A model generated the notes under the pieces. The model was not told the DNA's origin and made no database searches. It worked only from the letters and a program-made list of their open reading frames with translations. Positions 59,139-61,483 of a stretch of DNA of 64,000 bases are shown here, one piece after another (within the stretch, counting starts at the first letter, position 1; each line of letters starts with the position of its first letter). The translations under genes were made by a program, and so were the position numbers. This DNA is from Brevibacillus ruminantium (GTDB lineage: Bacteria > Bacillota > Bacilli > Brevibacillales > Brevibacillaceae). The stretch lies in assembly GCF_023746555.1 (NCBI RefSeq), contig NZ_CP098755.1, forward strand, positions 5,543,001 to 5,607,000, given 5' to 3'.

Positions 59139-61052
59139 TTATTTCTCATTCACCAGCTTTTCCAGCTCATTCAGCGTCTCTTCAAAAATCTCCATCGCCT
59201 GCTCTATTGGCTTGGAAGTAGACATATCGACTCCCGCTGCTTTCAGCACTTCGATTGGCGGTGCGGAGTTGCCCGCTTCGAGGAAGTTCTTCTGGATGCG
59301 CTCGACGGCTGCCTCGCCCTCATCCATGACCTGTTTGGCCAGGGCCTGGGACGCCGCAAAGCTGGTGGAGTATTGGTAGACATAGTATTTGTAGTTGAAG
59401 AAATGGGAGACACGGGCCCACTCCATCGCGATCTCTTCATCGGACACCATATCCTTGCCGTAGTACTTCTTGTTGATGTCCAGATAGATTTTCTTGATGG
59501 CTTCCGCATTCAGCGATTCGCCGGCTTGCTCTTTTTCGTGGATCACCCGTTCAAATTCAGCAAACTGGGTTTGACGGAACAACGTCGAGCGGAAGTTCTC
59601 CAGATAGTGATTCAAGAGGTACATTTTTTCTTCCTTGGTTTTAGCCTGGGCGTACATGCTCTTGAACAGAAGCGTCTCGTTCATCGTGGAAGCCACTTCG
59701 GCCGTAAACGTCGGGTAGTCAGACGTAATGTACGGCTGATTTTTGTTGGTATAGTACGACTGCATCGCATGCCCCATCTCGTGGGCAATGGTAAAGACAT
59801 CGTCGAGCGTACCCTGGTAGTTCAGCAGCACATACGGATGGGTGTCGTAGGCGCCCCACTGATACGCGCCGTTTCGCTTGTCGTCTGTGGAGTACACGTC
59901 TACCCAGCCGCTCTCCATTCCGTCAGCAAGGGTTTTGACGTAATCATCACCCATCGCTTTCAGGCCGTCGATCACGATTTTCTTGCCTTCCTCATACGGT
60001 ATGTACTTGTCATCGGAAGGCACGATCGGCACGTAGATATCGTACATATGCAACTCCGGCACGCCCAGCATTTTCTTCTTCAAGGAAATATAGCGATGCA
60101 TAAGCGGCAGATTGTCATTGACCGTCTTGATCAGCTCGTCGTATACCTTGGTTGGAATATTGTTCGGCGTCAGGCTGGCTTCCAGAGCGGAATCGTAATT
60201 GCGAACGCTTGCATAATAGTTGTCAGCCTTTACTTTGGCTGCCAGCGTCTGGGCAAATGTATCCTGAAAATCGGTCAAAGCCTTGTAATAGGCTTGGAAC
60301 GCCTCTTTTCGCACCCGCTGATCTTTGCTTTCCATATAGGAAACGAAGTTGGCTCTGGTCAACTGTACTTCTTTGCCATTCTCGTCCTTGATCTTTGGAA
60401 AACGGACGTCTTTGGACAGCATGCCGTAAATATTTGTCGGAGAGCTGCCAAGCGGCATTGATTTGGCGAGGATTTCCTCAATTTCTTTGGACAAGGAGTG
60501 TTGTTTCGTACGCAGCTGGTCCTCCAGCATCATTTTATACGGCGCCAGCTCTTTTGCATTGAGCAGGGTCTTCATCTTGTCTTCGGGAATCGCTACGATT
60601 TCCGGCTTCACCCAAGCCGTTTTCTCGGAAACCAACGTGTACATTTTCTCAGCGCGATCCGCCAGATCCTGCAGCTCGGAATTGGAGGAGTTCACGTCCA
60701 GAGCCATATTGGCATAGACATACGCCTTGTCGTTCAGTCTCATCATCTCGCTGTAATCGTCGAGTGCCTTTTTCAGAGAGTCAACCGATTGTCCCAGTTT
60801 TCCCTGGTGCTTGGTGAAAGCCTTCGCCAGCTCCTCTACTTTATTTACATCCTTTTCCCAATCCTTCACCGACGCATAGATATGCTCGAGCTTCCACTTG
60901 AAGGCATCCGGTATCTCCGATCGGTCCTTGAACACCGGCACACTTTCCGCGGCCGCTACTACTTGTGTACTGTACGGAATAAATGGTGTGCTGACAGTGG
61001 AAAGAGCAATCGCCAGCGCAGTGAGAGAAACAAAAGCTCGTTTTTTCAACAT
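59139..61052 (-). CDS. pepF: Secreted oligoendopeptidase F (M3B)
   Basis: A 637-residue zinc metallopeptidase. Residues 1-35 form a signal peptide (FVSLTALAIALSTVSTPF, AxA-type end VVAAAES). The zinc site HEMGH lies near residue 425 (FTIAHEMGHAMQSYYTN), with the third ligand Glu in FTAEVASTMNETLL. PepF enzymes cleave oligopeptides; most homologues are cytoplasmic, so the signal peptide predicts an extracellular or wall-associated form. It is monocistronic. Confidence 0.93.
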   Translation of the reverse strand: MLKKRAFVSLTALAIALSTVSTPFIPYSTQVVAAAESVPVFKDRSEIPDAFKWKLEHIYASVKDWEKDVNKVEELAKAFTKHQGKLGQSVDSLKKALDDYSEMMRLNDKAYVYANMALDVNSSNSELQDLADRAEKMYTLVSEKTAWVKPEIVAIPEDKMKTLLNAKELAPYKMMLEDQLRTKQHSLSKEIEEILAKSMPLGSSPTNIYGMLSKDVRFPKIKDENGKEVQLTRANFVSYMESKDQRVRKEAFQAYYKALTDFQDTFAQTLAAKVKADNYYASVRNYDSALEASLTPNNIPTKVYDELIKTVNDNLPLMHRYISLKKKMLGVPELHMYDIYVPIVPSDDKYIPYEEGKKIVIDGLKAMGDDYVKTLADGMESGWVDVYSTDDKRNGAYQWGAYDTHPYVLLNYQGTLDDVFTIAHEMGHAMQSYYTNKNQPYITSDYPTFTAEVASTMNETLLFKSMYAQAKTKEEKMYLLNHYLENFRSTLFRQTQFAEFERVIHEKEQAGESLNAEAIKKIYLDINKKYYGKDMVSDEEIAMEWARVSHFFNYKYYVYQYSTSFAASQALAKQVMDEGEAAVERIQKNFLEAGNSAPPIEVLKAAGVDMSTSKPIEQAMEIFEETLNELEKLVNEK

Positions 61053-61165
61053 AATCGCCCCTTTACTCTATATCTACGATTCGCTATATAGTCTAATTAT
61101 ATCCATTACTGAAAATTCCTTCTTATTAGTAAAAATTTTTTAAATATTCCTTAACCGTCGCACAA

Positions 61166-61304
61166 TTATCCAAAGAATTTCTGGTTTTGTTAATAACATT
61201 GTGGATAACCGTAAGACCTCACCTCGTTTGCCCACAGCCCCCTTGTCGTAATCCGCTCCACCTTCCGCTGTTATCCACATTTTCTGTGGATACATTGTGC
61301 ATAA
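61166..61304. other. DnaA-box cluster near the replication origin
   Basis: Perfect boxes (TTATNCACA or complement) lie at 61200-61208 (TGTGGATAA), 61271-61279 (TTATCCACA) and 61296-61304 (TGTGCATAA). One-mismatch copies lie at 61166-61174 (TTATCCAAA) and 61285-61293 (TGTGGATAC). An AT-rich stretch adjoins at 61100-61147. The cluster fills the non-coding gap between pepF and the YjcZ-like gene. Bacillus uses origin-proximal clusters to titrate DnaA. Confidence 0.75.
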
Positions 61305-61396
61305 CTTAATTTTACCCACCATAGACATTTGCCCATACCGCTTCGCCCACTTCCACATAGCATAGGTATTGAATCCATGGTAGGAGGTGTCAGCTA

Positions 61397-61483
61397 GTGG
61401 GTATCTTCAACGGCTTCGACGATTTCGCGCTCATTCTGGTTCTCTTCATCCTGCTCGTGATCGTCGGTTGTGATTGTAACTAA
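61397..61483 (+). CDS. YjcZ-family small hydrophobic sporulation peptide
   Basis: A 28-residue peptide: MGIFNGFDDFALILVLFILL, then VIVGCDCN. The hydrophobic core ALILVLFILLVIVGC matches the YjcZ/YjcZ-like family found in spore formers, which are small single-span peptides. The GTG start follows AGGAGGTG by 9 bases. It is too short for most gene finders and is followed by a strong terminator. Its precise role is unknown; a coat or forespore membrane location is typical of the group. Confidence 0.8.
   Translation: MGIFNGFDDFALILVLFILLVIVGCDCN

Follow-up and report, generated by a model that had tools for sequence, protein, structure and literature searches.

Background

Work on DnaA-box clusters located outside oriC covers few bacteria so far. 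In Bacillus subtilis six of them are described, together with the early initiation that follows their joint deletion (PMC5295017, PMC13220808). These clusters are ywcI-vpr, gcp-ydiF, trmE-jag, ywlC, sda-yqeG and yydA, and the membership of trmE-jag is also stated elsewhere (PMC4447404). A further type of DnaA-box site is represented by the DARS loci of Escherichia coli, where, as published, box I is opposed to boxes II and III with equal spacing at both loci, and head-to-head contacts between DnaA molecules lead to the release of ADP. B. subtilis is devoid of DARS loci according to a recent review (PMC13220808), and the literature found describes no DARS control in Bacillota; moreover, a literature search returned no paper combining Brevibacillus, DnaA box and oriC.

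The present analysis concerns a stretch of 64,000 nucleotides of the genome of Brevibacillus ruminantium (G000:C1:5543001-5607000), here called the window, and in particular a group of DnaA boxes close to its right end. On comparative grounds, this element is probably a DnaA-box cluster near oriC, of the type known from B. subtilis, which would sequester DnaA and help to time initiation.

Results

Composition of the DnaA-box cluster

The cluster occupies 139 bp of non-coding DNA (61166-61304) between two divergent genes, one encoding an M3 oligopeptidase with an apparent signal peptide (N-terminus judged by eye) and the other a YjcZ-family protein. It comprises six boxes that differ from TTATNCACA at no more than one position, three of which are perfect (61200 and 61296 on the minus strand, 61271 on the plus strand) while the other three carry a single mismatch (TTATCCAAA at 61166 on the plus strand, TTATTAACA at 61188 and GTATCCACA at 61285 on the minus strand). 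The sequence-only reading had counted the three perfect boxes correctly, and had listed two near-perfect ones in place of three. The features of the locus are the following.

59139..61052, minus strand: flanking gene of an M3 family oligopeptidase (Pfam PF01432, E=5.8e-79)
61094..61122, minus strand: promoter-like element of the peptidase gene, GAAGGAATT-N11-ATATAATTA (motif match)
61105..61152, no strand: AT-rich tract, 83% A+T, overlapping the promoter-like element; no DnaA-trio
61166..61174, plus strand: DnaA box 6, TTATCCAAA, one mismatch; TTATCCAGA in most of the genus
61188..61196, minus strand: DnaA box 5, TTATTAACA, degenerate here, genus consensus TTATCCACA; second member of the tandem pair
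61200..61208, minus strand: DnaA box 4, TTATCCACA, perfect; first member of the tandem pair, 12-bp pitch
61271..61279, plus strand: DnaA box I-like, TTATCCACA, perfect; head-to-head with box II over the 5-bp spacer TTTTC
61285..61293, minus strand: DnaA box II-like, GTATCCACA, one mismatch; genus consensus CTATCCACA
61296..61304, minus strand: DnaA box III-like, TTATGCACA, perfect; 11-bp pitch, tandem to box II
61397..61483, plus strand: flanking gene of a YjcZ-family small protein, 28 aa (Pfam PF09680, E=5.3e-10)

The boxes fall into two modules. One is the three-box core (61271-61304); the other, roughly 60 bp away, consists of the tandem pair (61188-61208) and the sixth, inverted box.

DnaA boxes are short and 142 perfect ones are present in the whole genome, so that a chance run had to be considered. 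None of 20,000 Markov-1 simulations of the intergenic region reached three perfect boxes, or six boxes with at most one mismatch, and the expected number of triples within 105 bp from 142 perfect boxes is 0.0005. Together with the conservation across the family described below, which by itself refutes a chance run, these figures leave that explanation a negligible probability, and the predicted cluster is confirmed as real. Clusters were scored over the 896 kb around oriC, the rest of the genome being scanned for perfect boxes only; in the scored region (150- and 250-bp windows) a score of at least 3.0 was reached by this cluster, the mnmE-jag intergenic region and both halves of oriC, and by no others. 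Across the genome, 67 boxes of the form TTATCCACA were found, and pairs of them less than 200 bp apart occur at four places: the cluster, mnmE-jag, oriC and C1:5058588. The last of these (C1:5058588-5058605) consists of two perfect TTATCCACA boxes placed head-to-tail with zero gap, about 570 kb to the left of oriC. A search of plasmids with the intergenic DNA of the cluster gave no match.

Conservation in the genus and in the family

Conservation among relatives had been set beforehand as a result by which the cluster would stand or fall, and the cluster was retained in 26 of 26 Brevibacillus genomes, upstream of the same gene in each, and also in most other genera of the family. The three-box core pattern occurs exactly once in each of the 26, always at this locus. 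Within the 12 non-redundant sequences of the genus, the mean major-base frequency is 0.94 in box columns and 0.60 between boxes (Mann-Whitney p = 1e-16), reaching 0.98 in the columns of box I and falling to 0.54 in the 62-bp spacer between the modules. Elsewhere in the family, the outer boxes remain 24-25 bp apart by offset, and the tandem pair with its 12-bp pitch is present in most; genomes G035 and G031 show no clear pair, and two genera (g2 and g3) have no box II while keeping the outer boxes. The distance to dnaA ranges across the family from 14 to 23 kb, for those genomes in which the cluster and dnaA were both located. When the 1.5 kb preceding ychF was inspected in 25 Bacilli from outside the family, no cluster was seen, other places in these genomes being possible, and as far as sampled the cluster is specific to the Brevibacillus family.

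Flanking genes and promoter-like DNA

The AT-rich stretch which had been noticed beside the boxes measures 83% A+T (61105-61152), and the motif overlapping it makes promoter DNA a better reading than an unwinding element. This motif, GAAGGAATT-N11-ATATAATTA, resembles a sigma-H promoter, and it was found in 22 of 26 genus sequences when 9 to 14 bases were allowed between the halves. On the other side of the cluster, upstream of yjcZ, the window features two strongly conserved blocks, GCCCATACC and ACATAGCATA (61320-61375), possibly a sporulation promoter.

The position of the cluster in a divergent promoter region, beside a conserved promoter-like element, could indicate that DnaA regulates transcription of the gene for the secreted M3 peptidase, the YjcZ gene or both, as it does for sda in B. 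subtilis, and a role of DnaA as transcription factor is known (PMC4447404). This explanation is nevertheless unlikely, since the cluster is kept in a genome without either gene: in G026 both peptidase and yjcZ are gone, and the cluster alone stands between the DUF951 gene and ychF. In G034, moreover, the peptidase copy near oriC is a 53% homologue and the AT-rich promoter tract has been lost, but the boxes stay close to oriC, whereas a closer peptidase homologue (70%) located elsewhere is free of boxes. Regulation of these genes as the only function is weakened by both genomes. The persistence of the cluster in G026 after the loss of both flanking genes suggests that the oriC-proximal position, rather than the neighbours, is under selection, and the near-constant distance to dnaA holds regardless of the flanking genes; these comparisons favour a role tied to chromosome position. 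In G036 the core is kept and the contig ends there, the comparison thus covering the right side only.

Location of the origin

From gene order, dnaA had been expected to the right of the window, and it is indeed present there, its start lying at C1:5624673, 20.4 kb from the cluster. Boxes of oriC occupy two stretches, 5624239-5624575 in the intergenic DNA upstream of dnaA and 5626037-5626231 in the dnaA-dnaN region; in the latter a box is followed by a GC-rich stretch and then by TACTACTAT, an arrangement which we read as a DnaA-trio of the B. subtilis type. Calculated over 896 kb, the cumulative GC skew is lowest at C1:5626316, where dnaN starts, 22 kb from the cluster. Given the boxes flanking dnaA, the trio and the skew minimum at the same place, this is a bipartite origin of the usual form, with the cluster about 20 kb to the left of it.

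It had also been proposed that the cluster might be part of a bipartite origin, and boxes adjoining an AT-rich tract do look origin-like at first sight. This idea, like that of a second origin, is very improbable: a complete bipartite oriC already flanks dnaA, the skew minimum and the trio sit at dnaA-dnaN while no TACTACTAT-type repeat was found in the cluster, and the AT-rich tract, which shares bases with a promoter-like element, has been lost from G034, where the boxes are retained. On the basis of skew, trio and location of oriC, an origin role was rejected.

At the other end of the window, an open reading frame at 131-430 encodes a DnaA/IstB-like AAA+ ATPase, and a DnaA-family search gave four places of equal score in the genome, probably copies of an IS21-type element.

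Geometry of the three-box core

On the plus strand the core reads TTATCCACA-TTTTC-TGTGGATAC-AT-TGTGCATAA. The cores of E. coli are TTATCCACT-ATTCC-TGTGGATAA-CCA-TGTGTATTA in DARS1 (bioD-uvrB intergenic region) and TTATTCACC-TTTTC-TGTGGATAG-AGT-TGTGAAGAA in DARS2 (rppH-mutH intergenic region). All three consist of three boxes, with box I head-to-head with box II at an offset of 14 bp and box III tandem to box II, and the 5-bp spacer TTTTC is identical to that of DARS2; however, the start offsets I-II/II-III are 14/11 in Brevibacillus and 14/12 in both DARS loci, so that box III shares the orientation but not the spacing of its E. coli equivalents. The geometry, head-to-head plus tandem, resembles that of DARS and is new and unexpected for a Gram-positive group.

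A DARS-like site would bind ADP-DnaA head-to-head on boxes I and II, aided by DnaA on box III, and free the ADP, so that DnaA would be recharged and initiation promoted. Beyond the orientation and the I-II offset shared with both E. coli cores, this possibility draws on the 5-bp spacer being other than the usual one in Bacilli outside the family (3 of 15 matches) and on the conservation in Brevibacillus DnaA of L290 and D269, named for DARS activity in E. coli DnaA (PMC5742627), but these two are general DnaA residues. The II-III offset also departs from that of DARS, and the I-II spacer is 5 bp in 23 of the 26 genomes of the genus; it is shorter (4 bp) in G003 and G025, where the II-III offset is 12, and longer (6 bp) in G020. 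The outer boxes thus hold their 25-bp distance more steadily than boxes I and II hold theirs, and no other feature of the core is as stable. Box II is absent from g2 and g3, where the outer boxes remain. Furthermore, the residue aligned with Gln208 of E. coli DnaA, which we take to be needed for DARS, is Asn in Brevibacillus, and the E. coli DARS loci sit far from oriC.

A scan of genome contigs for the three-box geometry, with either II-III spacing allowed, returned at least 120 stretches; among the matches listed, they are proteobacterial apart from five Brevibacillus species and a few others, a distribution which speaks for the DARS-like reading. Since the order of the scan was not random and this geometry alone was covered, its counts are descriptive only. 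None of the inspected matches in proteobacteria falls within a long reading frame or has any of the E. coli DARS flanking genes within 2.5 kb, and the flanks of 14 inspected matches share no common gene pair except in two Wohlfahrtiimonas species. Without DARS genes nearby or a shared flanking pair, these matches cannot be called DARS orthologues, and their location away from the E. coli DARS genes counts against the DARS-like reading. A few records of Clostridia and Negativicutes (L195, L237, L256 and L296) also fit the DARS-like three-box geometry, among the matches listed.

On balance, a DARS-like function of the core is unlikely. Slimmer still is the prospect of a working DARS-like site beside oriC in a Gram-positive family, through which Brevibacillus would control the nucleotide state of DnaA in addition to its binding.

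Discussion

DnaA sequestration near oriC is the reading which we prefer. The two spaced modules, the three-box core on one side and the tandem pair with the sixth box on the other, would bind DnaA. Being about 20 kb from oriC, the cluster would be copied soon after initiation, and the additional high-affinity sites thus generated could pull DnaA away from the sister origins. By drawing DnaA to itself, the cluster would help to prevent premature re-initiation. We infer the binding of DnaA in vivo, its sequestration and the effect on the timing of initiation. Of the two roles put forward in the sequence-only reading, the bipartite origin has been abandoned, and titration fits the conservation, the B. 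subtilis precedent and the proximity to oriC. Against the preferred reading speaks the fixed spacing and orientation of the boxes, for which simple titration gives no obvious need.

The compact two-module layout was kept across the family while the flanking genes changed, and it offers well-defined targets for mutation. Should the core recharge DnaA in the manner of DARS, the view that Bacillota exert control on the binding of DnaA rather than on its nucleotide state would have to be revised; such control would depart from the picture currently drawn from B. subtilis. Otherwise titration makes use of the same geometry, which would call for caution in naming DARS from layout alone.

Comparison with known systems

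Like a bipartite oriC of the B. subtilis type, the cluster has DnaA boxes near AT-rich DNA, but it carries no DnaA-trio, lies away from the skew minimum and is 20 kb from dnaA. With datA of E. coli, which lowers active DnaA, it shares the condition of a multi-box site outside oriC in the origin region; datA, however, needs an IHF site between its boxes and has a different box layout. The Brevibacillus core is near oriC, in contrast to the distant DARS loci of E. coli. The locus is without a counterpart among the B. subtilis clusters listed above, whereas the DnaA-box cluster of the mnmE-jag region (C1:5619880-5619980, 4-5 kb from dnaA), with at least two boxes in 10 of the 11 relatives with a readable interval, is the counterpart of trmE-jag. 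In common with the B. subtilis clusters, the cluster described here is an intergenic group of several near-perfect boxes outside oriC, and it is found near the origin, 20.4 kb from dnaA.
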